A DNA stretch of 64,000 nt from Comamonadaceae bacterium. Lineage in GTDB: Bacteria > Pseudomonadota > Gammaproteobacteria > Burkholderiales > Burkholderiaceae_C. The translations under genes were made by a program, and so were the position numbers. Each line of letters begins with the position of its first letter. Positions within the stretch are counted from its first letter, which is position 1. The stretch spans positions 1 through 64,000 of the forward strand of contig CANFWV010000001.1 of NCBI GenBank assembly GCA_947450695.1. Direction: 5' to 3'. Below the pieces are notes generated by a model. It saw only the letters and a list, made by a program, of their open reading frames with translations, had not been told where the DNA came from and searched no databases. Below, piece after piece: positions 13,417-32,868 of this stretch.

Positions 13417-14019
13417 TTAGTCGATTCGCTGCAGCCAAGGTGTCTGCAGCGCCACTTTTTGCTCATAGGCTGTGAGGGCGTCGGCGTAGCGAAGTGTGCG
13501 GGTGATGTCATCTTCACCAGACAACAGTTGCGCCAAGTGGCCGCGCGCCAGCTCAAACTTGATCTTCAAACCGTCAGGCGTTAGCGCCACACAGTTGGCA
13601 ATGTCCATGGCGAGCATGGCGCCATCGACTTTGAGGCTTTCAGTCAGCGCCGCGTGGTCCGTGGCTGACACCGTTCCCGTGACGATGCCATTTTTAACCG
13701 TGTTATTACGGAAAATATCACCGAAAGACAGCGCCACAATCGCCTGAATTCCATAGTCAGAGAGGGCCCAAACCGCGTGTTCCCTGGACGAACCGCAGCC
13801 AAAATTACGCCCGGCAATCAGGATGCGGGTTGCGCTGCCTGCCGTCACAAAAGAGGCATCAGGGTTCTTCGCCGCCACCCAGTCAGCAAACAAGTGAACC
13901 CCCATCCCCTGGCGAACCGTGGTCTTGAGGTACTGAGCCGGGAAGAGGGCATCGGTGTCAATGTCGTCGCGCTGCAAGATGGCCACGGGACCTTGGACGC
14001 GTGTGATGGCTTGTCTCAT
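13417..14019 (-). CDS. leuD: LeuD-type small subunit of a 3-isopropylmalate dehydratase-family enzyme
   Basis: 200 residues, the swivelling small subunit of a heterodimeric aconitase-family hydro-lyase. Seen are DDIDTDALFPAQYLK, the substrate-loop motif NFGCGSSREHAVWAL, and FGDIFRNNTVKNG. The start overlaps leuC by four bases. In leucine synthesis LeuCD interconverts 2- and 3-isopropylmalate, but here no leuB or leuA is near and the pair ends a six-gene catabolic operon. The partner of LeuC as a citraconate- or dimethylmaleate-type hydratase is therefore at least as likely (inference). The symbol denotes family only. Confidence 0.85.
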   Translation of the reverse strand: MRQAITRVQGPVAILQRDDIDTDALFPAQYLKTTVRQGMGVHLFADWVAAKNPDASFVTAGSATRILIAGRNFGCGSSREHAVWALSDYGIQAIVALSFGDIFRNNTVKNGIVTGTVSATDHAALTESLKVDGAMLAMDIANCVALTPDGLKIKFELARGHLAQLLSGEDDITRTLRYADALTAYEQKVALQTPWLQRID

Positions 14020-15449
14020 AACAGAAACTCCCGCGGATCAGTGAGTGCACCGCGCAGGGCCGAAGCTGCCACAGCGGCAGGGCTCATCAAATGGGTCCGC
14101 CCGCCTTGACCCTGACGATTTTCAAAATTACGGTTGGACGTTGACGCACTGCGCTGCCCAGGCTTCAGGTTGTCGCCATTCATGCCCACGCACATGGAGC
14201 AGCCAGACTCACGCCACTCAAATCCTGCGTCGACAAAGATCTGCGCCAAACCTTCAGCCTCTGCCTGACGCTTGACCATGGTCGAACCTGGAACCACCAG
14301 TCCTCTCACACCCTTGGCGATACGCCTGCCTTGGGTCACGCTGGCTGCTGCGCGCAGGTCCTCAATTCGGGCGTTGGTACAGGAACCGATAAAGGCCACG
14401 TCGATGGGAATGCTGGCGACAGCTTGTCCGGCGTGCAGCCCCATGTATGTCAGCGCAGCCTCAAACCGATACTGTTCGGCGATGCTGTCTTCAGCCCCAA
14501 AGGAGGACGGAACGATTTGGTCAAAACCGGCGCTGTCTGCAGGCGTGGTACCCCAGGTCACCGTGGGATGAATACGACTTGCATCTACCGACTCAAGCCT
14601 GTCAAAGTCGCTATTGACTCCATTGATGCCAATGACGCCGTAGTTGTCGGTCTGAAGACAGCGCCATGCAATCAACGCTTGATCAAAGTGCATCTTGGCC
14701 AGGCCAGAGACACGCGGTCTCAAATAGGCCACGGTAGCCTCATCAGGTGCCACCAAACCAAAGCGAGAACCCGCTTCGATGGTCATGTTGCAGAGCGTCA
14801 TCCGGGCTTCCATGGACAGTGCGCTGACAGTCGGGCCAAAATATTCGATGGCAAATCCAACACCCCCACTGGTGCCTAACTGGCGAATGATGGCGAGCGC
14901 CAGGTCTTTGGCGTAAACACCTCGACCGAGCTGTCCGTCAACCCGCAGCCCAAGGGTCGCGAGTTTGCGCACCCACAGGCTTTGCGTGCTCATGACATGT
15001 TCGGCTTCAGACGTCCCGATGCCCCAAGCCAGAGCCCCTAGCGCACCCAGCGTTGCGGTGTGAGAGTCACCGCAGACGACTGTCGCACCGGGCAGGATGT
15101 AGCCCTGCTCAGGCCCGACCACATGGACAATACCTTGCCGCACGTCATCAAGGTCAATCAGGCGCATGCCGGTCAGTTTGGCGTTGGCCCGCAAGGTGTC
15201 AATCTGCGCGGCACTCTCCGCATTGGGGATGTGCGTATTGCGGTCGGGTGTTGTCGGGACGTTGTGGTCCTGAATCGCTATGTGGCGTTCACTCGAACGC
15301 AATACACGCCCCGACAAGGCCAGCCCGGCAAAGGCCTGCGGGCTGGAGACTTCTTGCACAAGGTGCCGGTCGATATAGACAAGGTCTTCGCCGTCTTCAT
15401 TGCTGGCCACCACATGGGTTTGCCAGATTTTGTCAAACAAGGTGGTCAC
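14016..15449 (-). CDS. leuC: LeuC-type large subunit of a 3-isopropylmalate dehydratase-family enzyme
   Basis: Iron-sulfur large subunit, 477 residues from GTG 15449. The 4Fe-4S ligands are visible in IGSCTNARIEDL and SGCSMCVGMN; YIDRHLVQEVSSPQAF and VCGDSHTATLGALGALAWG are family hallmarks. Compared with E. coli LeuC there is an extra segment of about ten residues before VTWGTTPAD. The open frame runs on to 15656, but the upstream residues are not LeuC-like and lie antisense-free inside the preceding gene. An ATT overlapping that gene's TGA is an alternative start. Operon context suggests a catabolic hydratase rather than leucine synthesis (inference). Confidence 0.85.
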   Translation of the reverse strand: MTTLFDKIWQTHVVASNEDGEDLVYIDRHLVQEVSSPQAFAGLALSGRVLRSSERHIAIQDHNVPTTPDRNTHIPNAESAAQIDTLRANAKLTGMRLIDLDDVRQGIVHVVGPEQGYILPGATVVCGDSHTATLGALGALAWGIGTSEAEHVMSTQSLWVRKLATLGLRVDGQLGRGVYAKDLALAIIRQLGTSGGVGFAIEYFGPTVSALSMEARMTLCNMTIEAGSRFGLVAPDEATVAYLRPRVSGLAKMHFDQALIAWRCLQTDNYGVIGINGVNSDFDRLESVDASRIHPTVTWGTTPADSAGFDQIVPSSFGAEDSIAEQYRFEAALTYMGLHAGQAVASIPIDVAFIGSCTNARIEDLRAAASVTQGRRIAKGVRGLVVPGSTMVKRQAEAEGLAQIFVDAGFEWRESGCSMCVGMNGDNLKPGQRSASTSNRNFENRQGQGGRTHLMSPAAVAASALRGALTDPREFLL

Positions 15450-15465
15450 AGAAGATGGGACCTGA

Positions 15466-16206
15466 TCAATAGTGGGACAACAACTTGCCCAAGCCTTGGA
15501 CTTTGTCCGTGATACCGACGGCACGCAAGGCGTGCCAATACGTGGCCGTGTTGATGGCGATGACGGGTTTCCCGAGGTACAGCTCGGCAGCGGCGGCAAA
15601 TCGAACCATGGACAGATTGGTGCCAACCTGCACGATGGCGTCCACGTCGTCGCCATCGAGTTGTCTCAGCGCGTCACGGCACATTTCGTCGGTGGTGTGG
15701 GCAATCTGCACCGGGCCGGGCCGCTGCAAACAAAGATCACGGACGACGGTGAAACCGCAGTCTTCATAGAACCGGCGGACTTGCTCGTTGGCCACAGGAA
15801 AGTAGGGCGACAGAAAGGCAATCCGTTTTACCTTGTAAGCATTGAGTGCGGCTTCAGTGGCGAAGGAACCGCAGGAAACGTCTACTCCGGCGCGTTCACG
15901 CATCATGGTGAGGAAGCTTTCAGCGCCTTTGCGGCCATCCCAGAAAGTCGCTGCAGACATGCCCATCACCAAGTACTGCATCTCGCAACTTTTGAGAACA
16001 TCAGCGGCCTGCAGGGTGTTGCCTTGAATGCTCTTGACCAACTTCAGGAATTCCTCGTTGTTACTGACCGGATCATTTGGAATGACGATCCGACTGTAAT
16101 GGTTGGTTACGCCCACCGGTCGCATGTCGTCAAAGTCAGGTTGAACAATGGTGTTCGTGGAGGGGCCCAACACACCAAATTTCATGCGGTAACCAAGATG
16201 GTCCAT
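15466..16206 (-). CDS. Maleate isomerase/arylmalonate decarboxylase-fold protein lacking both family cysteines
   Basis: 246 residues of the Asp/Glu racemase superfamily, maleate isomerase (NicE) and arylmalonate decarboxylase branch. The opening MKFGVLGPSTNTIVQPDF matches the maleate isomerase substrate loop. The two positions that carry catalytic cysteines in the family read MGMSAAT (Ser84) and QVGTNLSM (Gly195/Thr196), so neither is cysteine by my alignment. It may not do classical cysteine chemistry and could be a decarboxylase, hydrolase or isomerase of new type. Two bases separate it from the upstream amidase gene, and its stop abuts leuC. Confidence 0.75.
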   Translation of the reverse strand: MDHLGYRMKFGVLGPSTNTIVQPDFDDMRPVGVTNHYSRIVIPNDPVSNNEEFLKLVKSIQGNTLQAADVLKSCEMQYLVMGMSAATFWDGRKGAESFLTMMRERAGVDVSCGSFATEAALNAYKVKRIAFLSPYFPVANEQVRRFYEDCGFTVVRDLCLQRPGPVQIAHTTDEMCRDALRQLDGDDVDAIVQVGTNLSMVRFAAAAELYLGKPVIAINTATYWHALRAVGITDKVQGLGKLLSHY

Positions 16207-16208
16207 GA

Positions 16209-16829
16209 TTAGACTTTCATAAGTAGTTGAAGAAAAGTATCGCGAGGCATCACATCGGCATATTTCTGCCGCATATCGAACAGATTGGCGTCGTGGGGTT
16301 CGATGGCCCGGTCGCCAACGCAGTCCTCAATCACGACGGTGCGAAAGTTGAACTGCATCGCGTCCACGACGGTTGCACGGATACAGCCGCTGGTGGTGCA
16401 GCCGACCACGACGGCTGTGTCAACACCCCGCAAATGCAGCCATTCAGACAGGCCGGTCGAAAAGAATGCAGAGGCTGAAGTCTTGCGCAAAACCCATTCG
16501 CCCATGACCGGTGTCAATTCGGGAACGATTTGTGAGGCATGGGCGTGTTCCGTTAATTGCAGCAGCGGTGGCACCTTCAGACAAAACACGTTTTGATTAG
16601 CGCCATCGTCAGCAAAAACCACGCGTGTGTGTACGACCGGAAGTTGAGCTTTCCGGAAGGCCGCCAGCAGGGGCACTGTCGCCTTGACAGCCTCAACGAT
16701 GTGAGGGCCGCCAAACTGCGTTTCGTCCACGAAACCGTTGACGAAATCCACCAATATCAAACCGCACCGTGAGCCCATGCCGGATGCATTGCCCATGTTC
16801 TGCTTGCGGTAGATGTCTTCCTTGCTCAA
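16209..16829 (-). CDS. Isochorismatase-family amidase (maleamate/N-carbamoylsarcosine amidohydrolase-like)
   Basis: Cytosolic cysteine hydrolase, 206 residues, with the complete triad: Asp28 in LILVDFVNGF, Lys116 in VLRKTSASAF and the nucleophile Cys149 in VGCTTSGCIRATVVDAM. TSGC followed by RATVVDAM is typical of the N-carbamoylsarcosine amidase and maleamate amidohydrolase (NicF) subgroup rather than isochorismatase itself. In nicotinate degradation NicF releases ammonia from maleamate and a maleate isomerase acts next; here too a maleate-isomerase-fold gene follows. Substrate inferred to be a half-amide. Overlaps the upstream lyase gene by four bases. Confidence 0.85.
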   Translation of the reverse strand: MSKEDIYRKQNMGNASGMGSRCGLILVDFVNGFVDETQFGGPHIVEAVKATVPLLAAFRKAQLPVVHTRVVFADDGANQNVFCLKVPPLLQLTEHAHASQIVPELTPVMGEWVLRKTSASAFFSTGLSEWLHLRGVDTAVVVGCTTSGCIRATVVDAMQFNFRTVVIEDCVGDRAIEPHDANLFDMRQKYADVMPRDTFLQLLMKV

Positions 16830-17734
16830 GGCTTCACCTCTTCGGCAGCATGCGACTTGTCAAAATTTGCCACCCAGTCGAAGCCCATCAATTTAGAGAA
16901 CTCCTGGAAGTCATGCAGTGGCTGATCGAGGTTGGCACTTGAACCGGTTGCCTTGATGTGGCTGTAAACATTTTTAAATGCGGCTCCCGCAGACAAGAAT
17001 GCCGCCGACGGAAAGATAACAAGCCCAAAACCGATGCGCTGCAACTCTTCCTTTGTCAGCACGGGGGTGCGTCCAGTTTCAACCATGTTGGCCACCAGTG
17101 GCAGGTCAAATGCTTTGCCGATGGTTTCCATCTCCTCAATGGACTCCGGACTTTCAATGAACAGGATGTCGGCACCAGCTCGTGCGTATTGCTCCATGCG
17201 GCGCAGGGCTTCGTCCAGACCATGAACGGTGCGAGCATCTGTGCGGGCAATGATCTGGAAGTTCTTGTCGGTGCGTGTTTCTGCCGCCACCTTGATCTTG
17301 GCAACCATGTCCTGCGTAGGCACCACCCTGCGGCCCAACATATGGCCACATTTTTTGGGGAATTCCTGGTCTTCAAGTTGGATCGCGCAGGCACCGGCCG
17401 TTTCATAGCCGCGAACGGTGTGCATGACGTTGAGCAGGCCGCCGTAACCTGTATCACCGTCGCAAATCAGGGGCGTGTCGGTGATGCTGACGAATTGACT
17501 GACCCGATTGACCATATCCGTGTAGCTGGCCAGACCAGCATCGGGCAGTCCCAAGTAAGAGGCAACGGTGCCGTAACCCGTCATGTACAAGGCTTCAAAG
17601 CCCATCTGGTCCGCGATCTTGGCGGAGACCATTTCAAAAACACCTGGTGCGACGACGAGGTGTCCCTTGGCGAAATGGGCTTTGAGTTCAGCGCGCTTTT
17701 GCGCGCCTGTTTTGGTGCTTAGACCTTGCTTCAT
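16826..17734 (-). CDS. Isocitrate lyase/PEP mutase-family carbon-carbon lyase
   Basis: 302 residues, TIM-barrel lyase. Metal-binding DGDTGYG (Asp92, Asp94), LEDQEFPKKCGH with the catalytic KKCGH loop at 127-131, and ARTDAR near 185 are all present. The KKCGH cysteine points to carbon-carbon bond cleavage of a 2-hydroxy-dicarboxylate (methylisocitrate, 2,3-dimethylmalate or similar) rather than phosphonomutase chemistry. Such enzymes yield pyruvate or glyoxylate plus a short carboxylate. The gene overlaps both neighbours by ATGA, second in the operon. Given leuCD downstream, a 2,3-dimethylmalate lyase-like role is plausible but unproven. Confidence 0.85.
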   Translation of the reverse strand: MKQGLSTKTGAQKRAELKAHFAKGHLVVAPGVFEMVSAKIADQMGFEALYMTGYGTVASYLGLPDAGLASYTDMVNRVSQFVSITDTPLICDGDTGYGGLLNVMHTVRGYETAGACAIQLEDQEFPKKCGHMLGRRVVPTQDMVAKIKVAAETRTDKNFQIIARTDARTVHGLDEALRRMEQYARAGADILFIESPESIEEMETIGKAFDLPLVANMVETGRTPVLTKEELQRIGFGLVIFPSAAFLSAGAAFKNVYSHIKATGSSANLDQPLHDFQEFSKLMGFDWVANFDKSHAAEEVKP

Positions 17735-18927
17735 GCGATGGACTCCGCGCGTTCTAGCGCATCAATCATGGATGTTTTGCGAAGGTAATCTTTCGCGGCG
17801 GAAGGGCTCGCTGCGATAGCTCGCAGTTCGCTCTGGGTTTTTTGGCGCGCTTGTGGATCACGCTCTTCGATATTCTTTTTGTTGCGAGCCGTGTTGGCAT
17901 TGATGTACTCGATGGCCACCGCACGTCGTTGACGTTCATAGCGGTCCAGTAGATCCGGTGATGCGCCCGACGTCAAAATTTCAATCAGTTTGTCCGAAAG
18001 GTTGAAGGCATCTTGGACGCCACCGTTCATGCCCATGCCACCGATCGGATTGTTGATGTGCGCGGCATCTCCAGCAAGGGCGACACGGCCCCGGCGGAAC
18101 TCCTTGGCAACGCGCTGGTGAACTTTGTAGAGCGTGCGGTGCACCGTGTTGTAAGGGGTATCTTTAGGGAGAAGATTTTGCATCCGGGCTTCAATAGATT
18201 CGTCGGTCATGACTTCTTCATCCGTCTCTTCAAGCCGAGTGGGGAAAAGAACCCGCCACAAGGTCGGAACTTTCAGCAGAACGCACCATTCATTAGGATC
18301 CGAGACGTAATTGACATACGACAATTTGGGTAGGTGATCAGCGTATTCAAAGTCGGTCGACACTGACAAAAAACGCTCAGGGTAAGTAAATCCTTCAAAT
18401 TCAATGCCCAGTGACTGACGCACCATGCTTGATGCACCATCTGCGCCAATGAGGTAGTTGCCGGTGAAGTTTTCGATTTTGCCGTCTATTTTGACTTTGG
18501 CTGTCACGCTGTCAACATCCTGATCAACCGACTGTAGTTCTGCCCCCATCAAAATAGTGACGTGTGGCAATAAAGCCAGTCTGTCTAGCAACAGGGTATT
18601 GAGTTTCCATTGCTCACATTGCAGACGAAAGGGGTGCTGTGTTTCGCCTTTTAACAGAGCCATGTCAAATTCTGCAATGAGGCCTTCTTTCCGATCGCGC
18701 TGTTGCGTATAGCGGGCAACTAGGCCTTGCGACACAAGTTCCTCCGTCAGTCCGAAACGGGCCAGAAGGTCCAACGTTGGGGGGTGAAAGGTGGATGCGC
18801 GAAGGTCCTCCTGGGGGGCGATGTGACGTTCAAAGACAGTCACGGAAATGCCAGCCTTGGCCAAGTTCAGTGCGCTGACCAGACCTACGGGGCCTGCCCC
18901 AGCAATCAATACATGAGAGGGAGTCAT
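17731..18927 (-). CDS. FAD-dependent monooxygenase, group A (first paralogue)
   Basis: 398 residues from ATG 18927. The ADP-binding GAGPVGL lies at 10-16, the DG motif ADGASSMVR at 162-170, and the GD motif RVALAGDAAHINNP at 281-294. These are hallmarks of single-component, NAD(P)H-using flavoprotein hydroxylases acting on aromatic or heteroaromatic rings. The frame is open to a GTG at 18969, but the ATG gives exact collinearity with the paralogue at 30173-31369 (about 68% identical, no gaps, hand count). It is the first gene of the coupled operon; the substrate is not evident. Confidence 0.85.
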   Translation of the reverse strand: MTPSHVLIAGAGPVGLVSALNLAKAGISVTVFERHIAPQEDLRASTFHPPTLDLLARFGLTEELVSQGLVARYTQQRDRKEGLIAEFDMALLKGETQHPFRLQCEQWKLNTLLLDRLALLPHVTILMGAELQSVDQDVDSVTAKVKIDGKIENFTGNYLIGADGASSMVRQSLGIEFEGFTYPERFLSVSTDFEYADHLPKLSYVNYVSDPNEWCVLLKVPTLWRVLFPTRLEETDEEVMTDESIEARMQNLLPKDTPYNTVHRTLYKVHQRVAKEFRRGRVALAGDAAHINNPIGGMGMNGGVQDAFNLSDKLIEILTSGASPDLLDRYERQRRAVAIEYINANTARNKKNIEERDPQARQKTQSELRAIAASPSAAKDYLRKTSMIDALERAESIA

Positions 18928-19264
18928 TAGGAATCTGTTCAAGTGAGTAAGATTTGGATGATCGGTCACCCGCTCAATTTCTTCAAGCGGTAAATAATAA
19001 AGCTATATCAATAATTTATTAATCCATACAACTTAGTTGATGGCTAGGGATTGGTTCTGTAGCGCATTTGATGGGTGAGACTGTCAAGCGTCCACACATT
19101 GGTGCAACTTTGATACGCTTAGTTGAATGGCCATGGGGGAAACGCCCGCAGTGGCACAACATAAGTGCGATTTGTTCGTCGGTGGTGCGCAACATCGCAT
19201 CGAATGGGATCAGTCGCATTAAGGTCAACTCAACGTCCAAAGCGTGGACAGGCCTTTAAACATA
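18928..19264. other. 337-base intergenic region upstream of the catabolic operon
   Basis: Lies between the LysR gene and the monooxygenase operon, all on the minus strand. It is AT-rich near 18990-19025 and holds the dyad listed separately. Read on the minus strand, TTGTAT with an 18-base spacer and TATAGC is a possible promoter overlapping the dyad. Short open frames at 19019-19240 and 19068-19259 resemble nothing I know and are not called. Confidence 0.5.
19024..19043 (-). promoter_or_regulatory. Inverted repeat, candidate LysR operator
   Basis: CCATACAACTTAGTTGATGG: arms CCAT-CAACT against AGTTG-ATGG, with one unpaired base on one side. It lies about 100 bases before the monooxygenase ATG and overlaps the proposed -35 region, where LysR-type activators commonly bind. 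A shorter relative, CCATTAAGTTATGG, lies at 20187-20200, just upstream of the LysR gene. Confidence 0.35.
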
Positions 19265-20176
19265 TCAAGCCCCGGCATGCCGCCGCAAGCCATCCATAAA
19301 AGCTTTTAACAAGGGTGACTCGTTTGCTTCACGTCGACGAATAACGCCAACGCTGCCCTCCCGCAAGTAGGGTAGCGGCAGCGGAACCACCTGTTTGAGC
19401 CCTTGAAAGTAGTGCATCAGCCTTGCAGACATGGGCGCGACAAGATCACCGTCCTGGAGCATGGTCACGATGAGCAGGGTAGAGCCAGTCTCAACACGAT
19501 AACGTGGCGGAGGTTGGCCTGCGAGGGCTAATTCGTGCTCTAGCTCACGCCTGAGGGGACTGACTTTGGGCGGGATAATCCAAGGGTAGCGAAGAACATC
19601 AGGCCAGTCTACTTTTCGCTTTTTTGCCAATGGGTGATTCACACCAACCACGATGCGAATCTGCTCTGGGTAAAGGATGTCGCAGCGGACACCGGCATCA
19701 AGTCGTGCCTGGTCGGTACGGGTGATCACCAAATCTATCCGTCCTTCTTCAAGTTGCGGAAGCAAAGTGTCCAGTCGATTTTCAATGATGTTGAGGTAAG
19801 CATCAGGAAATTTTTTTCTGAAATATCCGACAGCGAGCGGCAACAATTCTGTCGCGACAGTTGGCGTGGTGCCCACCACCAAATTGCCAGACGCACCAAT
19901 GGACATCAAACTGATGGTCGCCTGTGTCCGATCCAGCTCTCCGATGATGGCCCTGGCATGCGTGACCAGTGCGGTACAAAATTCAGTCGGTGTGAGTCCG
20001 CGCGAGTTGCGTTTGAATAGTTTGACGTTCAGGTCTTCTTCGAGATCACCCAAAAATTTTGAAAGGCCCGGTTGAGTCACACCCATTTGGGTCGCCGTGT
20101 GGCTGATATTACGTGTTTCGTAAAGTGCAACCAGCAAGTACAGCTGACGCATGCGCAGACGTTGTGTCCACTCCAT
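19265..20176 (-). CDS. LysR-family transcriptional regulator
   Basis: 303 residues. N-terminal winged helix-turn-helix (about 8-65) with RNISHTATQMGVTQPGLSKFLGDLEEDL, then a periplasmic-binding-protein-like effector domain (about 95-300; GNLVVGTTPTVATELLP). It lies immediately upstream of and in line with the catabolic operon and divergent from a Bug receptor gene, so it probably controls one or both in response to a pathway compound (inference). The opening is MEWTQRLRMRQLYLL. Confidence 0.93.
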   Translation of the reverse strand: MEWTQRLRMRQLYLLVALYETRNISHTATQMGVTQPGLSKFLGDLEEDLNVKLFKRNSRGLTPTEFCTALVTHARAIIGELDRTQATISLMSIGASGNLVVGTTPTVATELLPLAVGYFRKKFPDAYLNIIENRLDTLLPQLEEGRIDLVITRTDQARLDAGVRCDILYPEQIRIVVGVNHPLAKKRKVDWPDVLRYPWIIPPKVSPLRRELEHELALAGQPPPRYRVETGSTLLIVTMLQDGDLVAPMSARLMHYFQGLKQVVPLPLPYLREGSVGVIRRREANESPLLKAFMDGLRRHAGA

Positions 20177-20713
20177 TTTGATATGCCCATTAAGTTATGG
20201 AATGAGAAAATAATATCATAGTAAAGAAATACTGCTTGCATCCAAAATACTTGCACTGAGCAACAACTAGTAAGGAAAACCGTGGGCTGCGTATTCCCTC
20301 TGTCGCAGGCCCTTGTGAGTACTTTGCAGCAGAGCCATTAGGCCAATCGGGCACGCTTAGTGCTTAGTGTTGCGCATTGGGCAAACCGGTCATCGTCGAA
20401 GTCGCCGAGATGCAGAAGGTCGTGACGGTGCACCCGAGCATTCCTGTGAACTCAATGAAGGAGTTGGTTCAGTTGATTAAAAAAATTGAGTAGTTTCAAT
20501 CACGGATCTTATTGGCGGCACAAGTGCCCAGTTCGATGCACGCATTAAAAGGACACAACACGCTTGACAGATGCCATTCGAATTTGAGGTTGCAGCGCCA
20601 AGTAGCTAAAGCAATTAACGCCATTTAGATTCGTATTCATTGGAATATTTATTATGCTCAGGACATTATTTTGTGATGATGAAGTATCTTTTTTTAAAAA
20701 TGAAGGAAGTCCC
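20177..20713. other. 537-base region between LysR and Bug genes with gene debris
   Basis: No intact gene. The LysR-proximal part (20177-20270) is AT-rich and includes CCATTAAGTTATGG at 20187-20200, a possible autoregulatory site. From 20380 to 20567 there is debris of a Bug receptor gene (listed separately). The last 140 bases before the next gene are AT-rich and presumably hold its promoter, but no convincing hexamer pair was found. Confidence 0.5.
20380..20567 (+). pseudogene. Remnant of a Bug-type solute receptor gene
   Basis: From 20380 the frame reads GKPVIVEVAEMQ and VTVHPSIPVNSMKELVQLIKK before a TAG at 20491. This matches the conserved Bug stretch seen in the intact neighbours as LVVPANLPVKTLGEFIAMAKAK. 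In another frame, 20514-20567 reads GGTSAQFDARIKRTQH, like the Bug C-terminus. The middle of the gene is gone and the frame is shifted, so this is a decayed copy. Confidence 0.5.
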
Positions 20714-25298: not shown

Positions 25299-25989
25299 GG
25301 CACGCGGACTGCAGGTGACATACGGTCCTACTGAGGCCGTAAAAAATATGTCCTTGCACATCGCTGAAGGCGAAATCGTCACCGTGCTCGGCGCCAATGG
25401 CGCGGGAAAAACATCCCTGCTCAAGGCCTTGCAAGGTGTTGTTAAACCAAGCCGGGGGGAAGTCTTTTTCAAAGGCCAATCCGTTAATCGGCAAAGTGCT
25501 GCGTGGCGGGTCAGGCAGGGTCTTGTGCTGGTACCTGAAGGCCGACAAATTTTCGTCAGCCTCACGGTGCACGACAACTTGTTGATGGGCGCCTACACGA
25601 GAACCGACAATCCTGAGCGGGAAATCGCTGCTATTTTCGACCGTTTCCCCAACCTCGCCAAGCGCCGCGACATGCTCGCGTCAGTGTTGTCAGGCGGAGA
25701 GCAGCAGATGCTGGCAATCGGTCGGGCTTTGCTGAGCAAGCCTGCCCTGATGATGCTTGACGAACCGTCTTTGGGACTGAGCCCCTTGTTGGTTCAAACG
25801 CTGTTCAAACTGATCACCGATTTGAACCGCGATGGACTCTCTATATTGCTGATCGAGCAAAACACACATATGGCTTTGGCTACCGCCCACAGGGCCTATG
25901 TGCTTGAGTTAGGGCGGCTGGTTTTGGAAGGTAGCACCAGCGAGTTGGCATCAGACCCTCGCATGGCGGCGGCTTATTTGGGTACTTAA
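25288..25989 (+). CDS. Branched-chain-type ABC transporter ATPase (LivF-like)
   Basis: 233 residues from ATG 25288, six bases after AGGAG; a TTG at 25282 is in frame but too close to that site. Walker A GANGAGKTS, LivF-typical LVLVPEGRQIFVSLTVHDNL, signature LSGGEQQMLAIGRAL and Walker B LMMLDEPSLGLSP are present. It completes the ATPase pair with the LivG-like protein. Confidence 0.93.
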   Translation: MLLEARGLQVTYGPTEAVKNMSLHIAEGEIVTVLGANGAGKTSLLKALQGVVKPSRGEVFFKGQSVNRQSAAWRVRQGLVLVPEGRQIFVSLTVHDNLLMGAYTRTDNPEREIAAIFDRFPNLAKRRDMLASVLSGGEQQMLAIGRALLSKPALMMLDEPSLGLSPLLVQTLFKLITDLNRDGLSILLIEQNTHMALATAHRAYVLELGRLVLEGSTSELASDPRMAAAYLGT

Positions 25990-26004
25990 ACAAAGGGGTT
26001 TTCA

Positions 26005-27177
26005 ATGAAAATGCGCTTCTTGCTCGGTTACTTGGCTGCCGCTGTGGCGCTTCCGGCCATGTCTCAGGAATTGGTTCTGGGTTTGTCCCACGCAAAAACA
26101 GGGCGCTATGCCGGTGTCGGGGTCGGTACCGAAATCGCGGTCGATATTGCTGTGGCTGAAATCAATGCCGCCGGCGGCATCAATGGTAAGAAGCTCCGTA
26201 TCGAAAAATTCGACACGGGTGGTGAGGGCAAAAATGCGCAGGTGGCGGTGCAAAAATTTGTCGAAGACACCAAGGCGCTCGGCGTCATTGGGCCATTCTC
26301 CAGTCAGGAAGCACAAGTCGGCTTTGCCGCCGGCGAGCGACTTGAAATCGTCCAAATTTCCAACTCGGCTACTGCACCTGGATTGACCAAAGACCGGAAA
26401 TGGGCCTTCCGTGTCACGGAAGATGAAGGCAAGCAGTTCGGGCGTCTGCTCAAGACAATGGCCACCAAGGGCGGCGTCACCAACAAGACTGCTGCCGTGA
26501 TGTACCCCAGCGATGAATTTGTTGGCAAGTCGCTGGCGAGCTGGATGCCTAATTTGCTCGAGGCCAATGGCTGGAAGATGGTCATCCCGGCGGAAGGTTT
26601 CCCAACCAACGCAACAGACTTATCCCCCCATATCACCAAGCTCAAGGGTATTTCTCCTGGCGTTTTTGCTTTTGCCGGCCTGCCTGAAGGCACTGCCAAA
26701 GTAATGAAAGAACTACGCCGCCAAGGCCATACCAGCACCTTGATTGGCGGCCAAATTTTTGCCGACCCAGACATTGGCAAGGTCTTGGGTGCAGACGGTG
26801 AGGGGGCTACTTTCGTATCCTGGTACTGGTGGGATGCCAATGACCGGACCCGTCAATTCGAGAAGAAGTTTTTGGAGGAAGCCAAGAAACGGGGCGTCAA
26901 CAAATCGGGCGCTCACCACGTTGACGCATCCGTCTATGACATTGTTTATGTTTACGCTGACTCCATGCGCCGGGCCAACGTGACCGGGGATGCGGCCAAG
27001 ATCAAAGCAGAAAGAGCTGCCATTCGTGACAACCTGATGGCTACCAACATCAATGGCGTCAACGGCAAAATCTGCTTCAGTCAAGACCATGACTCCGAAC
27101 TGCCTGCCTACATTATTCGGCTCAAAAACGGGCAGCGCACATTACTTGACTCGCACGCACCAGACGTTTGCAAGTAA
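26005..27177 (+). CDS. Periplasmic binding protein of the branched-chain-type ABC transporter
   Basis: 390 residues with a cleavable signal peptide (MKMRFLLGYLAAAVALPAMS before QELVLGLS). Type I periplasmic-binding fold of the LivJ/LivK/AmiC kind: SHAKTGRYAGVGVGTEIAVD, EINAAGGINGKKLRI, GPFSSQEAQVGFAAGE. The family binds amino acids, amides, urea and aromatic acids, so the ligand is open; the neighbouring enzymes suggest a nitrogen-containing ring compound or its amide (inference). Fifteen bases after LivF-like, and followed by a strong terminator. Confidence 0.92.
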   Translation: MKMRFLLGYLAAAVALPAMSQELVLGLSHAKTGRYAGVGVGTEIAVDIAVAEINAAGGINGKKLRIEKFDTGGEGKNAQVAVQKFVEDTKALGVIGPFSSQEAQVGFAAGERLEIVQISNSATAPGLTKDRKWAFRVTEDEGKQFGRLLKTMATKGGVTNKTAAVMYPSDEFVGKSLASWMPNLLEANGWKMVIPAEGFPTNATDLSPHITKLKGISPGVFAFAGLPEGTAKVMKELRRQGHTSTLIGGQIFADPDIGKVLGADGEGATFVSWYWWDANDRTRQFEKKFLEEAKKRGVNKSGAHHVDASVYDIVYVYADSMRRANVTGDAAKIKAERAAIRDNLMATNINGVNGKICFSQDHDSELPAYIIRLKNGQRTLLDSHAPDVCK

Positions 27178-27252: not shown

Positions 27253-27255
27253 CGA

Positions 27256-27304: not shown

Positions 27305-28207
27305 TTAACTAATATGGCCGGCGTGATTTTCCAGATACCAAGACGACAGTTCTTCGCGCGTTGTCCACCAAACGTCAGGGTGTCCTTTCGCATGCGCCAG
27401 GAACTCGCGGAAACAAGGCATCCGGTGAGCGTAGCCGGAGACATGCGGATGCAAGCCGATATTCATCAGTCGGCCGCTTTCGGCACCTTCCTTGTAAAGC
27501 TCGTCAAACTGGTCTTTAAGCATGCGTGCAGCATCCCAAGTCGACATGGCACGGCGGTGAAAGAAGGTGAAGTCGTTGATCTCGATGCTGTAAGGCACGT
27601 TGACAATCGGACCGGACGGTGTCTGTATCAGGTAGGGCTGATCGTCATTCATGTAGTCGCAGAAAAATTGAAGGCCTTGTTCCGCAACCAGATCAGGCGT
27701 GTTGGGTGTGCCGCGCAAGGACGAAGACAGCCAACCCTTGGCTTTACGTCCGACAGTTTTTTCGTAAACAGCCAAGGTGGCAGCGATCAGTTCCCGCTCT
27801 TTCGCAATGTCAAAGGTGTGGCGCGTCAACAGCTCGCCCTGTTCGTAGTTATGGGCCACGATTTCCCATTTCCGCTCGTTGGCGTAGGCGATGATTTCAG
27901 GACGCTCAAGTGCCGTCTTGGCGTTGATGGTGATGGAGAACGGGGCGCCCATCTCATCAAACAACTTGAACATCCGCCAGACGCCCACACGCTGGCCGTA
28001 TTCTCGCCAAGTGAAGTTGGGGAAGTCAGCCACGTTACCGGGAAGGGAGTCAGGCAACATCGGAGGGCCCCCAGCGTAATAGGGCTCGGTGGTGTCTTTG
28101 GTCAGATCCCAATACTCGCAGTTCATTGTCACGATGAGTGCCAGTTTTTTTCCATTGGGGAATCGCAAAGGTTTGCGGTTGATGATGGGCGACCATGAAT
28201 AATGCAA
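27305..28207 (-). CDS. CE4 (polysaccharide deacetylase-fold) amidohydrolase, PuuE/imidase-like
   Basis: 300 residues. The fold is that of polysaccharide deacetylases, but the metal motif is altered: TMNCEYW (Glu31) replaces the TxDD motif and AHNYEQGE (His119, Glu122) replaces HxxxH. With GTPNTPDLVAEQG, CDYMNDDQPYL and LHPHVSGYAHR (His253, His255), it matches the allantoinase PuuE and cyclic-imide hydrolase side of the family. Ring-opening of a cyclic amide or imide is more likely than sugar deacetylation; no signal peptide is seen. TTG start at 28207, seven bases after AGGAG. Divergent from the MBL gene. Confidence 0.78.
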   Translation of the reverse strand: MHYSWSPIINRKPLRFPNGKKLALIVTMNCEYWDLTKDTTEPYYAGGPPMLPDSLPGNVADFPNFTWREYGQRVGVWRMFKLFDEMGAPFSITINAKTALERPEIIAYANERKWEIVAHNYEQGELLTRHTFDIAKERELIAATLAVYEKTVGRKAKGWLSSSLRGTPNTPDLVAEQGLQFFCDYMNDDQPYLIQTPSGPIVNVPYSIEINDFTFFHRRAMSTWDAARMLKDQFDELYKEGAESGRLMNIGLHPHVSGYAHRMPCFREFLAHAKGHPDVWWTTREELSSWYLENHAGHIS

Positions 28208-28306
28208 GATAAAACTCCTGAGTGAAAGTTATAAAAATAAGCTGTGCGTTTGCCCAGCGAGGACGGAAACGGTGCGTATCACGACGTTATCAAAAGGACA
28301 GTCAAC

Positions 28307-29197
28307 ATGAAAAAACATATTTTGGGTGAGTTCAGCATTGACCGGATCGTTGAATCCGAAGGCGCTTTTGCAGCCCTGCAATGGATCATTCCACAAATCA
28401 CGAAAGACGATATTGATGCCAATGCAGACTGGCTCAAACCGCTGTTTGTAGATAACGACAACAACGCCATGATGTCGTTCCACAGCTATGTCCTCAGGAC
28501 TCGCCGGCATACCATCTTGATCGACACCTGCGTGGGTAACGACAAACCCAGGCCGAATCGGCCTAGCTGGCATCTGCAGAACTACGACTACCTGCAGGCG
28601 ATGGCACGCATTGGCGTTCGCCCCGATGAAATTGATTTTGTCTGCTGCACTCATCTGCACGCAGACCATGTAGGCTGGAACACCCAACTGGTCAATCAGC
28701 AATGGATTCCCACATTTGCCAAGGCCAAGTATGTCTTCTCCAAAACCGAGTACAACCACTGGGAGCATGCCCATCGATCGGCAATGGCGACAAACCAACC
28801 CGTGCCAAACCACGGCTCGTTTGCTGACAGCATTTTGCCAGTGGTCGATGCCGGTCAGGCGGTCATGGTGGCGGATGATTTTGAATTTGAAGAGGGGGTC
28901 TATTTGCAGGCTGCACGGGGTCACACACCCGGCAACTGCATGTTGCACGCCCACAGCCAAGGGGCGCACGGCGTCTTCAGTGGCGACATTCTTCACACGC
29001 CGGCTCAACTGATTAATTTGGACTGGTCGTCTCATTTTTGTCATGACGTCCATGCCTCTGAGGCCTCGCGCAAAGCCATGGTGCACAGCATGGCAGACAC
29101 GTCGAGTCTGCTGTTTGCCGCACACTTCCCCAGCCCGGTGGCCGGGCGTATTGTCAGCCACAAAGATCAATTCAGATTCCAAGGTCTGAAGTCCTGA
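28307..29197 (+). CDS. Metallo-beta-lactamase-fold hydrolase
   Basis: 296 residues from ATG 28307, eight bases after AAGGA; the frame opens at 28244. All dinuclear zinc ligands are present: THLHADH (His116, His118, Asp120, His121), GHTPGN (His206), FSGDILH (Asp227) and AAHFPSP (His273). The layout is that of lactonase and ester-hydrolase members (AHL lactonase, parathion hydrolase, pyridoxolactonase types) rather than true beta-lactamases, and there is no signal peptide. It may open a lactone, lactam or other ring product in this pathway (inference). Confidence 0.85.
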   Translation: MKKHILGEFSIDRIVESEGAFAALQWIIPQITKDDIDANADWLKPLFVDNDNNAMMSFHSYVLRTRRHTILIDTCVGNDKPRPNRPSWHLQNYDYLQAMARIGVRPDEIDFVCCTHLHADHVGWNTQLVNQQWIPTFAKAKYVFSKTEYNHWEHAHRSAMATNQPVPNHGSFADSILPVVDAGQAVMVADDFEFEEGVYLQAARGHTPGNCMLHAHSQGAHGVFSGDILHTPAQLINLDWSSHFCHDVHASEASRKAMVHSMADTSSLLFAAHFPSPVAGRIVSHKDQFRFQGLKS

Positions 29198-29254: not shown

Positions 29255-29932
29255 TCATGACAACAGATTCAAGCCGTGAAGGGACTCTTCGACCATGGCA
29301 CGCGGTCTGGTTGACATGATGTGCGACTGGGTTCGCAGTTTCCCTAGTAAGGGGTCGCGGGCTCGCAAGGCCTCTATGATCTCCATGTGTTGCTGGTTTG
29401 AACGGCGCACGGACACTTCACCCGGCCAATTCTGATTTTTCATGAGCACCAAAGGCAGTTCGATCAAAGGCTTGGCGAGGACCTGCAGGCGCTTTGAACC
29501 ACTGGCACGCAAAAGAGTCCCGTGAAACTCGTTGTTGCTGGACTGAAAGCGGGCAAACAACTCATCGGGGGTCAGGTCCGCACGATCGAGTAGAGCCTCT
29601 ATATCTCCGGCAATGCGCTCGAGTGCATCGAGGTCTTCGGTCTTCGCATTCAGGGCCGCCTGAGCGGTGGCATGGCCCTCCAAGATAGCGCGAAGTTGAA
29701 ATATTTCATCAATTTCTGCTGTGGACAGGTCTGCAACAAAAGTGCCCCGATTCGGTTCGGTACGCACCATACCATCATTGACTAAACGTCGCAAACTGTC
29801 GCGAACGGATGTTCTTGACACACCAACTCGCTGCGCTAACTCATCCTCAATCATGCGCTGCCCTGGGACATAGCGCCCCTCCAAAATGAGGCCTCGAATA
29901 GTTTTGTAAGCGATATCGCTGGCGCGGGTCAT
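29255..29932 (-). CDS. GntR-family regulator, FCD (FadR-type) subfamily
   Basis: 225 residues. Winged helix-turn-helix at about 5-72 (IEDELAQRVGVSRTSVRDSLRRL), then an all-helical FCD effector domain from about 85, with the acidic and histidine pattern NNEFHGTLLRASGSKRL. Such regulators are usually repressors released by a pathway carboxylate. It is divergent from the second monooxygenase gene with 240 bases between, where two matching TTGTGTACA sites lie, so it probably controls that promoter and its own. Confidence 0.92.
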   Translation of the reverse strand: MTRASDIAYKTIRGLILEGRYVPGQRMIEDELAQRVGVSRTSVRDSLRRLVNDGMVRTEPNRGTFVADLSTAEIDEIFQLRAILEGHATAQAALNAKTEDLDALERIAGDIEALLDRADLTPDELFARFQSSNNEFHGTLLRASGSKRLQVLAKPLIELPLVLMKNQNWPGEVSVRRSNQQHMEIIEALRARDPLLGKLRTQSHIMSTRPRAMVEESLHGLNLLS

Positions 29933-30097: not shown

Positions 30098-30107
30098 TTG
30101 TGTACAT
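30098..30107. promoter_or_regulatory. Candidate GntR (FCD) operator 2
   Basis: TTGTGTACAT, sharing nine consecutive bases with the site at 29961. It lies 65 bases before the monooxygenase start, in an AT-rich stretch (AAAATATTTTG) that is a likely promoter region. Confidence 0.45.
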
Positions 30108-30172
30108 TGAGAACTTAGAAAATTGCTTTTCATGAAGCACGTTCAAAGTCTCAGAGTCTCAAGGAGTTGGAA

Positions 30173-31369
30173 TTGATACAAGCTCATGTGATGATTGCAG
30201 GGGCCGGGCCCGTCGGCTTGGTCAGTGCCTTGGTACTGGCCGAAGCCGGTGTCAGAGTGACGGTGGCGGAATCGTCTCCGGGTCTCAACGAAGACTTTCG
30301 GGCTTCCACTTTCCACCCACCAACGCTGGACATGTTGGCGCCCTATGGACTGACACAAGATTTGATTTCGCAAGGCTTGGTGGCTCGCTACACCCAACAG
30401 CGCGACCGCCATGAAGGGGTCGTGGCAGAGTTTGACATGCAACTCCTGTCGGGCGACACGGACCATCCGTTTCGCCTGCAGTGCGAGCAGTGGAAGCTGA
30501 CCAATCTGATCTTGGCCAAGCTCGAAAAAATACCGCATGTGCAGATCCACTTCAACGCCAAGGTCGAATCGGTCGAGCAAACCGCCGACAAGGCGATCAC
30601 CCACCTGACGATTGAGGAGCAGGCCCATCAAGTAGTAAGCAATTACGTATTGGCTGCTGACGGTGCCTGGAGCACAGTCCGGCGGAGTTTGGGCATCGAT
30701 TTTGACGGCTTAACCTACCCGGAACGGTTTTTGGTGATTTCAACCGAGTTTGAATACGCTAAACACCTGCCCAAGTTGTCTTACGTGAACTACTGTTCTG
30801 ACCCCAAGGAGTGGTGCGTGCTGCTGCGCGTTCCTACCTTGTGGCGTGTGCTGTTTCCAACCAAGCCGGAGGAAACCGACGAAGAGGTGATGGGGGACGT
30901 TTTGGTCGAGCAGCGACTGCAAGCGCTGCTGCCGCAGCCGAAAAGTTACGAGACGGTTCACCGCAGCTTGTACAAAGTTCATCAGCGAGTGGCAAAGACT
31001 TTTCGCCAGGGACGTGTCTTTCTGCTGGGAGACGCCGGCCATATCAACAACCCACTAGGTGGGATGGGGATGAACGGTGGGGTACACGACGCGATGAACT
31101 TGTGCAAAAAACTGTTGGCGGTTATTCAAAAAGGGCAATCCGAGGACACCCTTGATCGCTATGAACGCCAGCGCAGAACCATCGCCATTGAATACATTAA
31201 CGCCAGCACAGCACGCAACAAAAAAGAGATAGAGGAGCGAGACCCGGTGCTGCGTAAAAAGACCCAAGACGAGTTGCGCGCCATTTGCGCCAACCCTGTC
31301 AAGGCAAAGGCCTATCTTCGAAAAACGTCCATGCTTGATGCCCTTGAGAGGGCAGATTCGATCGCCTAA
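30173..31369 (+). CDS. FAD-dependent monooxygenase, group A (second paralogue)
   Basis: 398 residues from TTG 30173, six bases after AAGGAG; the in-frame TTG at 30167 directly abuts that site. GAGPVGL is at 10-16, the DG motif ADGAWSTVR at 162-170 and the GD motif RVFLLGDAGHINNP at 281-294. Collinear with the 17731-18927 protein at about 68% identity (hand count, no gaps). The differences concentrate at residues 31-40, 112-160 and 311-320, so substrate or partner may have diverged while the core is kept. Divergent from GntR and probably repressed by it. Confidence 0.86.
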   Translation: MIQAHVMIAGAGPVGLVSALVLAEAGVRVTVAESSPGLNEDFRASTFHPPTLDMLAPYGLTQDLISQGLVARYTQQRDRHEGVVAEFDMQLLSGDTDHPFRLQCEQWKLTNLILAKLEKIPHVQIHFNAKVESVEQTADKAITHLTIEEQAHQVVSNYVLAADGAWSTVRRSLGIDFDGLTYPERFLVISTEFEYAKHLPKLSYVNYCSDPKEWCVLLRVPTLWRVLFPTKPEETDEEVMGDVLVEQRLQALLPQPKSYETVHRSLYKVHQRVAKTFRQGRVFLLGDAGHINNPLGGMGMNGGVHDAMNLCKKLLAVIQKGQSEDTLDRYERQRRTIAIEYINASTARNKKEIEERDPVLRKKTQDELRAICANPVKAKAYLRKTSMLDALERADSIA

Positions 31370-31572
31370 TTTCGCAAAGCCTGACCACCGCAAACCCCTT
31401 TCTGCATCACAGCTTGTTAGCCAGAGCTGGCTGTTGTCAGCGAGTTAATTTAGCTGTAAAAGTTTTGACGGCCATGTACGATAAGAAAATTAAGCTTTAG
31501 ATTCTGACTTTTTATCGTCAGACGTCGCGTCATAACGCGGTAACGAATTGCCTCCAACAAACTCAGCACACT
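31370..31572. other. Intergenic region before the CoA-transferase gene
   Basis: About 200 bases. A short hairpin AGCCAGAGCTGGCT lies at 31419-31432. TTGACG at 31465-31470 is a possible -35 box, with a weak AT-rich -10 (AATTAA) 17 bases on. A further small dyad TCTGAC/GTCAGA lies at 31503-31522. The downstream gene thus probably has its own promoter. Confidence 0.35.
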
Positions 31573-32868
31573 ATGTCAGTACAAGATTTATACCGGAGTA
31601 AACGCGGTAGCGCGGCAGATGCTTTAGCGCATCTTCATGATGGTGATTTCATCATCGTTCCGACTGGCGTTGGCGAGCCACCCACAATGCTGACAGAGTT
31701 GTCTGAACAACGCCGACGCTTTCACGACATCAAAGTTGGCCAGATTTTGGCGGTACGAAAATTCGCTTATTTCGATGCCGAAACTGCGGACCATGTCCGG
31801 CATGTCGCCTTTTTCTTTGGGGCAGCTTCTCGTGCTGGAGGCAGTGGGGGATGGGTTGATTTCATTCCCAGCTATTTTTCGGAAATGCCAAGTTTGATCG
31901 AGCGCGGTCAGATGGCGGCAGACGTGGTGATGGCGATGGCTTCGCCCATGGATAACCACGGTTATTTTTCGCTTAGTCTTGGCACTGACTACACCATGGC
32001 GGCGATCAAAAAGGCGCGTGTGGTGGTGCTGGAGGTGAACCCCAACGTGCCGTATGCCATGGGCAATTGCCATGTGCATATATCTCAGGTGACTGCACTG
32101 ATTGAGAGCAGCGATGTGATCATGGAAGTTGGGTTACCAAAGATCGGTCCGATTCAAGAGGCTATCGGTAAATATGTAGCCGACATGATCGACGACGGCT
32201 CGACGTTGCAGATCGGTTACGGTGGTATTCCCGATGCCGTGGTGATGCAGTTGACAGCCAAGCACGATCTGGGTATTCACACTGAGATGATCGGCGATGG
32301 CATCTTGACACTGATTGAAAGCGGTGCTGTGACCAACCGCAAAAAAAACTACCTGCCGGGAAAGACCATCGCCACTTTTGCGCTGGGCTCGCAAAATCTC
32401 TACCGCTATATGGACCGCAATCCGGGCCTAGAAATGCACCCGGTCGACTTCACCAACGATCCTTATTTGGCGGGCCAGAATGACAATTTGGTCACTATCA
32501 ACGCCACTTTACAGATTGATTTATTAGGCCAGTGTGGTTCTGAAAGTTTGGCGCATCTGCCTTACTCAGGCACCGGTGGTCAATCTGATTTTGTCCGTGC
32601 AGCCAACCGATCAAGGGGTGGAAAGTCCTTCATTGTTTTGCCCTCCACTGCGAAAAACGACACCATCAGCCGCATTGTGCCAATGCTGTCACCTGGCACC
32701 CACGTGAGCACCAGCAAGAACGACATCAACTACGTGGTGTCGGAGTTCGGCGTAGCCCAGTTGCGTGGCAAGTCAGCCAAGCAACGCGCGAGGGAGTTGA
32801 TTGCTATTTCCCACCCTGATTTCCGTGCTGACTTAACGCTGGCAGCCAAAACGATGAATTTGATCTGA
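31573..32868 (+). CDS. Acetyl-CoA hydrolase/transferase-family CoA-transferase
   Basis: 431 residues, two-domain class I CoA-transferase of the Cat1/4-hydroxybutyrate CoA-transferase type. GYGGIPDAVV and the active-site LGIHTEMIGDG (Glu238, in the register of the known 4-hydroxybutyrate enzyme) are visible, then DLLGQCGSESL. It would move CoA between acetyl-CoA and another short acid, such as propionate or succinate. It follows the second monooxygenase by 203 bases and may activate the pathway's carboxylate product, or be unrelated. It converges with glnD, five bases apart. Confidence 0.85.
   Translation: MSVQDLYRSKRGSAADALAHLHDGDFIIVPTGVGEPPTMLTELSEQRRRFHDIKVGQILAVRKFAYFDAETADHVRHVAFFFGAASRAGGSGGWVDFIPSYFSEMPSLIERGQMAADVVMAMASPMDNHGYFSLSLGTDYTMAAIKKARVVVLEVNPNVPYAMGNCHVHISQVTALIESSDVIMEVGLPKIGPIQEAIGKYVADMIDDGSTLQIGYGGIPDAVVMQLTAKHDLGIHTEMIGDGILTLIESGAVTNRKKNYLPGKTIATFALGSQNLYRYMDRNPGLEMHPVDFTNDPYLAGQNDNLVTINATLQIDLLGQCGSESLAHLPYSGTGGQSDFVRAANRSRGGKSFIVLPSTAKNDTISRIVPMLSPGTHVSTSKNDINYVVSEFGVAQLRGKSAKQRARELIAISHPDFRADLTLAAKTMNLI

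Follow-up and report, generated by a model that had tools for sequence, protein, structure and literature searches.

Between pdf and glnD of a Comamonadaceae bacterium (assembly GCA_947450695.1, contig CANFWV010000001.1), the gap is filled by an island of predicted catabolic genes whose enzyme families are known and whose combination we have not found described. The window analyzed here is the first 64,000 nt of this contig. The island begins with an operon of six minus-strand genes, fmo1-lya-ami-mai-leuC-leuD (18969 to 13417, fmo1 being the first gene), and continues with an importer, a CE4 hydrolase of the PuuE type, an MBL-fold hydrolase, a second monooxygenase and other genes (Table 1). 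We read the island as a patchily inherited (horizontal) aerobic catabolic pathway running through a cyclic imide, a reading to which we give about an even chance of being right. The substrate would be a nitrogen heterocycle (N-heterocycle). Gene families were assigned by Pfam, NCBIfam and PDB searches of the window proteins.

Co-conservation of the gene set

The gene set is not accidental: the whole of it, or large parts, travels together in Beta-, Alpha- and Gammaproteobacteria. An alignment scan of named genomes with CE4 gave 320 relatives, of which the best 80 loci were kept; the 80 cannot be counted as independent, and many of them are short contigs. A flavin monooxygenase (fmo) is found at most 10 kb from CE4 in 33 of these loci, the isomerase-fold protein mai in 30, the lyase in 28, the amidase in 25, and MBL and livH in 21 each. 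The counts fall to 15 for GntR, 14 for SDR, 12 for TctC, 7 for LeuD and 1 for LysR. In a subset of 46 loci in which CE4 has over 6 kb of sequence to either side, scored with slightly different limits, they are 22 for fmo, 19 for the lyase, 18 for mai, 17 for the amidase, 11 for livH, 10 for MBL, 8 each for LeuC, SDR and GntR, and 7 for LeuD. CE4 is accompanied by one or more of fmo, mai, lyase, amidase, LeuC, MBL and livH in 34 of the 46. Co-occurrence of the operon with CE4 and MBL across genomes, which a preliminary description of this stretch had proposed to look for, is thus borne out for large parts of the set. As a control, 19 window proteins from outside the cluster were searched in the 80 loci with a match limit of 100 bits: 16 had no match, two TctC receptors had 12 each, and an AMP-binding enzyme had 3.

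Compact and plasmid-borne versions occur (loci are numbered L and genomes G below, G000 being the genome of the window). In three genomes (L089, identical with L054; L090; L091), five genes form an operon, CE4-ami-mai-fmo-lya, located after TctB/TctA-family genes. An Allorhizobium pseudoryzae plasmid (L037) holds nearly all of the set in about 16 kb: monooxygenase, mai, CE4, MBL, lyase, amidase, SDR and Liv. The Novosphingobium capsulatum plasmid L035 has CE4, amidase, lyase, fmo and mai, and plasmid records from Thioclava (L038, no CE4 or lyase) and Roseomonas marmotae (L039, no fmo, mai or lyase) have partial sets. A deeper set of mai, flavin monooxygenase and CE4, at 29-42% identity, recurs in the window's own genome (L056) and in L062. 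In the former (G000:C2:51500-71400, positions 5753-19887), where identities are 30-42%, mai, TctC, flavin monooxygenase, SDR and CE4 lie close to a CaiB-type transferase, an amidase and both subunits, alpha and beta, of a Rieske-type ring-hydroxylating enzyme. At the sphingomonad loci several conserved open reading frame families had no Pfam match, and an attempt to guess the substrate from neighbors there (VAO-type flavoenzyme, amine oxidase, methyltransferase, IclR) led nowhere.

A patchy island at the pdf-glnD site

The genes are a patchy accessory island at the pdf-glnD site. In two genomes of the same genus, G657 and G639, ligA, pdf, glnD and map lie side by side and the cluster is absent between them. 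The distance from pdf to glnD is at most about 0.9 kb in 6 of the 11 same-genus genomes examined (G591, G628, G629, G639, G647, G657); it is 3.3 kb in G634, 11 kb in G666 and 23 kb in G640, and the two genes are far apart in G660 and G672. We call the cluster patchy because CE4 orthologues, at a cut-off of E<=1e-90, occur in only 11/61 genomes of the genus and 3/299 of the family, the own genome being counted in both.

The arrangement varies among the carriers. In the closest relative, G666 (L260-L262), the pdf-glnD site carries leuDC-mai-ami-lya-fmo1-lysR, two TctC-type places and a 93% identical CoA-transferase; CE4, MBL, GntR, Liv, SDR, TctC and a second amidase (71%) are on another contig. 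L266 (G630) has leuDC, MBL, mai, ami, lya, fmo1, LysR, TctC, SDR, Liv and CE4 as a single block at a different genomic place. Other Comamonadaceae (L074, L075, L076, L077, L079) have the order mai-ami-lya-fmo2/gntR/mbl/CE4/Liv/SDR, and L078 and L080 the same without one end. In G640:C31, the 23 kb at the same site, between glnD (492394-494988) and pdf (518076-518612), hold a 67% identical flavin monooxygenase homologue (502635-503822); the CE4 of this genome is 158 kb away. The peptide deformylase gene bordering the island (12857-13396) was considered as a NicD substitute and rejected: its product passes the general PRK00150 cut-off, the gene adjoins that of the NAD-dependent DNA ligase, and it is found in 0/80 loci.

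An extra LeuCD paired with an ICL-type lyase

LeuC keeps the cluster cysteine motifs GSCTN and SGCSMC, and LeuD is adjacent, as in LeuCD-type hydratases. The pair is extra to the housekeeping copy: the same genome has a second LeuCD (G000:C73) that groups with betaproteobacterial single copies, and the window copy falls outside them. A LeuC tree was made of 61 rows from 68 pieces, pieces shorter than 400 residues and exact duplicates being dropped and neighbor labels set by hand. In it, the window copy pairs with the cluster LeuC of Cupriavidus sp. P-10 (100/100), outside the housekeeping set. Six sphingomonad copies near a lyase form another clade with a Glaciecola copy (95/92), and the copies of L104 (as L240) and L108 (as L239) are in a third part, with copies beside distant CE4 paralogues. 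The neighbor label changes 11 times on the tree, compared with 19.1 in shuffles, and none of 500 shuffles was as low. Because cluster LeuC copies fall in separate parts of the tree, LeuCD seems to have been recruited more than once. The cluster LeuC of Sphingobium sufflavum (L217, G316:C32, at 3362) branches within the housekeeping set, next to the copy of its own genome, and looks like a recent copy or recruitment of the housekeeping gene.

The association of LeuCD with the lyase, which the preliminary description had proposed as successive steps, recurs. Of 26 whole genomes hand-picked from the CE4 carriers, 11 (G300, G301, G309, G310, G312-G316, G318, G319) have a lyase homologue (38-97% identity) no more than 5 kb from LeuC. 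About 0.3 such pairs would be expected from 59 LeuC and 70 lyase-family matches and the genome sizes, an estimate that ignores kinship and uses a broad lyase family. Six of the 26 (G312, G314, G315, G316, G318, G319) have a second, sphingomonad assembly, in which a CE4 paralogue and an isochorismatase, each at about 33%, stand with LeuCD at about 46%.

The lyase has KKCGH at position 127, in keeping with the KKCGH/KRCGH motif of ICL/PEP-mutase lyases, and the Cys, Gly and His of the motif are invariant in 15 sequences. It scores 270 against TIGR02317 (methylisocitrate lyase PrpB), under the cut-off of 354. At the places where TEFG and SGGG stand in four solved methylisocitrate lyases it reads VETG and TGYG; the petal death protein (1zlp) has IEGG and SGY at these positions. 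On curated score and on the TEFG/SGGG motifs the enzyme would not be classed as 2-methylisocitrate lyase PrpB. Sixth among the PDB matches, at 172 bits, is the solved 2,3-dimethylmalate lyase 3fa3.

A CaiB-type CoA-transferase and an HMGL-type lyase occur together in L040, L104, L108, L121, L067, L075 and L096 among 114 loci scanned (at 16407-18611 in L104, 14323-16636 in L108 and 16458-18610 in L040). They possibly provide an alternative cleavage of the same hydroxy acid; as a strict substitute for the ICL-type lyase they are a weakened candidate, since L121, L067 and L075 have that lyase too. Near the L104 cluster is a lyase homologue (38%; G307:C7:31951-32850) with one in-frame stop, perhaps a decayed copy.

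Amidase, imidase candidate and isomerase-fold protein

The amidase keeps the full triad (D28/K116/C149) noted in the preliminary description. Its closest solved relative by far is 3ot4/3uao, which we take to be the maleamate amidohydrolase NicF of Bordetella bronchiseptica and which the PDB lists as a putative isochorismatase; next is N-carbamoylsarcosine amidohydrolase at 140 bits. The isochorismatase fold, the Asp-Lys-Cys triad and this strong homology argue for a NicF-like enzyme with predicted activity on maleamate.

No Pfam family matched CE4 at E<=0.001, and it is assigned on its match to the PuuE allantoinase 3cl6 (124 bits). E31, H119 and LHPH at 252-255 are invariant. We regard it as a PuuE-group hydrolase and a candidate cyclic imidase. 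In a Defluviicoccus metagenome-assembled genome (L101, 7583-9382 and 12345-13601), a CE4 orthologue lies by CofD-family and AbrB-family proteins without other partners. The SDR, found by the Liv operon in L069, L070, L074-L079 and L086, is by analogy with HxnW (below) a candidate for oxidizing a hydroxylactam to the imide. An MBL homologue (61%) lies between mai and leuC in one relative (L252/L266). Neither MBL nor SDR was found near CE4 in sphingomonad loci, within the limits of the 80-locus scan, nor in the minimal operons.

The mai protein has the Asp/Glu racemase-type fold of maleate isomerase in an AlphaFold2 model (mean pLDDT 92.2; best PDB match 2xed, TM 0.88). The second catalytic cysteine (C200 of Pseudomonas putida Iso, 4fq5/4fq7) aligns with the invariant G195 of mai. 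The first falls at G82 in the arylmalonate decarboxylase (AMDase) alignment (position 74), or at M83 in the 2xed alignment if the cysteine numbering of 2xed is as we take it to be. There is no invariant cysteine among 21 mai sequences, the commonest being at residue 74 (16/21). The catalytic Cys188 of AMDase is absent as well: the CGG stretch of AMDase aligns with VGT of mai, and GTN is invariant in 12 sequences. With neither catalytic cysteine present, mai should not bear the name maleate isomerase, and the NicE-like isomerization first ascribed to it is not supported. Plasmid records name it arylmalonate decarboxylase. It often adjoins a flavin monooxygenase. Distant relatives (about 36-40%) on Leisingera and rhizobial plasmids (L149, L150, L151) have AMP-binding or adenylation-domain proteins as neighbors, which may mean that the family has uses outside catabolism too.

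Two monooxygenases and a CoA-transferase

Two flavin monooxygenases could stand for two successive oxidation steps, which the copy numbers do not support. The two proteins are 67% identical. We searched 11 related CE4-bearing genomes, several of them incomplete, with fmo2: ten have exactly one close monooxygenase (65-73% identity to fmo2; remaining matches 39-46%), none has two, and G637 (78% complete) has none. As the close copy is single in 10/11 carriers and never double, fmo1 and fmo2 are most plausibly paralogues that stem from two versions of the module, and fmo2 is probably redundant.

Nor is the CoA-transferase a constant part of the cluster. It is within 10 kb of CE4 in 0/80 loci, and among the loci examined it recurs only in the close relative's L260, as a 93% identical copy at the same genomic site. 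It was rejected as a guide to the product (butyrate), being below the TIGR03948 cut-off and not conserved.

Gene map

All genes of the preliminary list are present with open reading frames. The strand of CE4 and the start of LeuC had to be corrected, and the TctC receptor at 20654-21679 was missing from the list. The LeuC open reading frame of 546 codons runs on to 15656, into the preceding gene; the GTG at 15449 suits LeuC and is most likely its start. A plus-strand open reading frame of similar length over CE4 matched no Pfam or NCBIfam family.

Table 1. Genes of the island between pdf and glnD, in window coordinates
Gene	Family or predicted product	Position	Strand	Best matches
leuD	LeuD-type small subunit of extra (non-housekeeping) aconitase-family hydratase	13417-14019	-	PF00694 89 bits; NF002458 186 bits
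leuC	LeuC-type large subunit	14016 to ~15449	-	PF00330 513 bits
mai	maleate-isomerase/AMDase-fold protein	15466-16206	-	PF17645 49 bits
ami	isochorismatase-family amidase	16209-16829	-	3ot4/3uao 227 bits over 194 residues
lya	ICL/PEP-mutase superfamily lyase	16826-17734	-	PF13714 157 bits; 4iqd 203 bits; petal death protein 1zlp 200 bits
fmo1	group A flavin monooxygenase	17731-18969	-	PF01494 241 bits; PnpA 223 bits; HspB 206 bits
lysR	LysR regulator	19265-20176	-	PF03466, PF00126
tctC	TctC solute receptor	20654-21679	+	PF03401 249 bits
SDR	SDR dehydrogenase	21753-22529	-	PF13561 160 bits
livH, livM, livG, livF, livK	Liv-type ABC importer, five genes	22730-27177	+	PF02653 twice, PF00005 twice, PF13458
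CE4	CE4/PuuE-type hydrolase, candidate cyclic imidase	27305-28207	-	PuuE 3cl6 124 bits; 3qbu 33 bits
MBL	MBL-fold hydrolase (HLHADH), lactonase-like	28244-29197	+	PF00753 75 bits; 7y7u 61 bits
gntR	GntR-FCD regulator	29255-29932	-	PF07729, PF00392
fmo2	group A flavin monooxygenase	30167-31369	+	PF01494 214 bits
CoA-transferase	acetyl-CoA hydrolase/transferase family	31573-32868	+	PF13336 205 bits; TIGR03948 279 bits (cut-off 675)

Relation to known pathways

Parts of the set are familiar. In cyclic imide metabolism an imidase, then a half-amidase, lead from imide through half-amide to a dicarboxylate; the island would have this sequence of steps and add ring oxidation before it and hydration and C-C cleavage after it. 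The bacterial nicotinate pathway (NicC-NicX-NicD-NicF-NicE) combines, as the island does, a NicF-type amidase with a group A flavin monooxygenase and a maleate-isomerase fold, whereas in the window the isomerase-fold protein lacks the cysteines and LeuCD and the lyase are added. The scan of the cluster proteins showed no NicX-type ring-cleaving dioxygenase and no NicD-type hydrolase; for the NicX-type dioxygenase the search did not extend to the remainder of the genome. Nicotinate fermenters use dimethylmaleate hydratase (LeuCD-type), then 2,3-dimethylmalate lyase (ICL superfamily). The same two families would follow each other here, but in aerobe-type clusters with flavin monooxygenases and CE4, and with a specificity that is predicted.

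The nearest described logic, without the hydratase-lyase ending, is that of the hxn nicotinate pathway of Aspergillus nidulans. There the monooxygenases HxnX and HxnV act, HxnW makes 3-hydroxypiperidine-2,6-dione, and the cyclic imidase HxnM and the amidase HxnN follow (PMC9304392). Flavin monooxygenases, an NAD-dependent imide-making dehydrogenase, a PuuE-related cyclic imidase and then an amide hydrolase (PMC9304392) thus have predicted counterparts here, while the hxn amidase is of the fatty-acid-amide-hydrolase type and that of the window of the isochorismatase type. HxnM is structurally nearest to HpPgdA (3qbu), whose closest characterized relative is the allantoinase PuuE (PMC9304392); the window CE4 matches PuuE far better than 3qbu (Table 1). 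LeuCD, the ICL-type lyase and mai, all present in the window, do not figure in hxn as set out in the sections of PMC9304392 cited here. The preliminary statement that no known pathway has this gene set therefore holds for the whole set, of which no description was found in open-access PubMed Central full texts (subscription papers were outside that search), and not for the imidase-amidase half, whose fungal precedent had gone unnamed. Riboflavin catabolism was considered and dropped: the enzymes named in the portions of PMC12746152 drawn on differ, and maleamate appears there only among the references, which include the structure paper on the B. bronchiseptica maleamate amidohydrolase.

Proposed pathway and alternatives

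The route that we infer would begin with uptake of a small N-heterocycle by the Liv and/or the TctC system. One flavin monooxygenase would oxidize the ring together with the cysteine-less mai, and the SDR may oxidize a hydroxylactam to the imide. CE4 would then open the imide to a maleamate-like half-amide, which the NicF-like amidase, given its strong family-level homology, would probably convert to ammonia and a substituted maleate. The extra LeuCD would hydrate this to a substituted malate, and the ICL-type lyase would cleave it to a 2-oxo acid, such as pyruvate, and a short carboxylic acid. The MBL hydrolase may act on a ring or lactone intermediate. The chemistry of their families is such that a LeuCD and ICL-type lyase ending needs a malate-type C4 acid. 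Since the lyase would take a malate-type and LeuCD a maleate-type substrate, the diacid should be C4 and the imide therefore five-membered; the evidence favors such an imide, probably alkyl-substituted. Of the joined route proposed earlier, imide opening, half-amide hydrolysis, hydration and C-C cleavage are supported by the co-conservation; isomerization, a second monooxygenase step and the CoA-transferase are not.

A more specific form of this route is, in our judgment, less likely than not. Here an alkyl-substituted pyrrole- or pyridine-derived ring, for example the maleimides from chlorophyll, heme or bilin breakdown, would pass through a five-membered imide and an alkylmaleate to pyruvate and a short acid. 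It would do so by way of a CE4 imidase clade that is new, a LeuCD recruited repeatedly, and a cysteine-less isomerase-fold enzyme with a new reaction beside the monooxygenase, making up an undescribed aerobic route.

Several observations weigh against the imide pathway. CE4 is nearer to the PuuE allantoinase than to 3qbu, the structure most similar to the fungal imidase. None of the seven partners listed above is near CE4 in 12/46 well-flanked loci, and CE4 without partners occurs in several lineages; CE4 may therefore take part in more than one pathway. Only 8/80 loci have LeuC at a distance of 10 kb or less from CE4, with no Comamonadaceae among the eight. The best-scoring PDB chain for the lyase, 4iqd, by name a carboxyvinyl-carboxyphosphonate phosphorylmutase, itself has TEFG, and some sphingomonad lyases are a more divergent group (33-44%). 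Except in Comamonadaceae and in the minimal operons, the amidases are only 33-41% identical to that of the window. Furthermore, mai is not exclusive to the cluster. Its closest relatives outside the family, at 79-82% identity (G002, G052, G137, G175; L045-L048), are on contigs of 7 to 17 kb, on which no CE4 was found, and which have a monooxygenase and a lyase or amidase at 38-56%, or none of these genes. Several mai of 49-60% identity (e.g., L036, L051, L052, L065) are without a partner within the stretch fetched.

Three other explanations were weighed. An hxn-like, six-membered route is unlikely: the monooxygenase would yield a polyhydroxypyridine, the SDR a glutarimide-type imide, CE4 would open it and the amidase give a C5 acid, LeuCD and the lyase acting on a later or side intermediate. 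The nearest solved relatives of fmo1, PnpA and HspB, do include a hydroxypyridine monooxygenase (HspB), but the hydratase-lyase ending calls for a malate-type C4 acid, and no alkene reductase is among the cluster proteins scanned. The enzyme types occur in the same order in A. nidulans, yet hxn, as described in the parts of PMC9304392 used here, ends at alpha-hydroxyglutarate without hydratase or ICL-type lyase. Less likely again is a non-imide substrate, in which CE4, like PuuE, would open a ring of the hydantoin or lactam type and the amidase would act on an N-carbamoyl or other amide. The affinity of CE4 to PuuE speaks for it, as does N-carbamoylsarcosine amidohydrolase as the amidase's second-best solved relative; on the other hand 3ot4 is far ahead of the latter, and an amino-acid product would not suit LeuCD and the ICL-type lyase.

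Still more improbable, in our view, is that two pathways sit side by side, a module leuCD-mai-ami-lya-fmo1 and another of Liv, SDR, CE4 and MBL having become neighbors by chance of insertion at pdf-glnD. The two are on different contigs in the closest relative (L260; L261/L262), CE4 lacks partners in 12/46 well-flanked loci, and the Cupriavidus sp. P-10 plasmid L043 has leuCD, lyase, mai and amidase with no CE4 or fmo in the 31 kb fetched. Yet the closest relative retains both modules, in L266 they form a single block elsewhere in the genome, L089-L091 have CE4-ami-mai-fmo-lya as one operon, and Allorhizobium L037 packs members of both into its short plasmid segment. We prefer the single pathway through a cyclic imide.

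Implications

Present annotation misnames or misses two groups of enzymes: the isomerase-fold family that lacks the cysteines, and the CE4 clade, which has no match in Pfam. The prediction is testable, as some carriers have strain numbers; Sphingopyxis panaciterrulae DSM 27163, Sphingobium sufflavum HL-25 and Pseudoroseomonas ludipueritiae DSM 14915 are examples. The similarities to hxn suggest that bacteria have, through convergence, a counterpart of the fungal imide route that ends differently. We know of no genes for the aerobic bacterial use of imide-forming heterocycles; if our reading is true, the island would provide such genes for freshwater and soil bacteria, a step in nutrient cycling.

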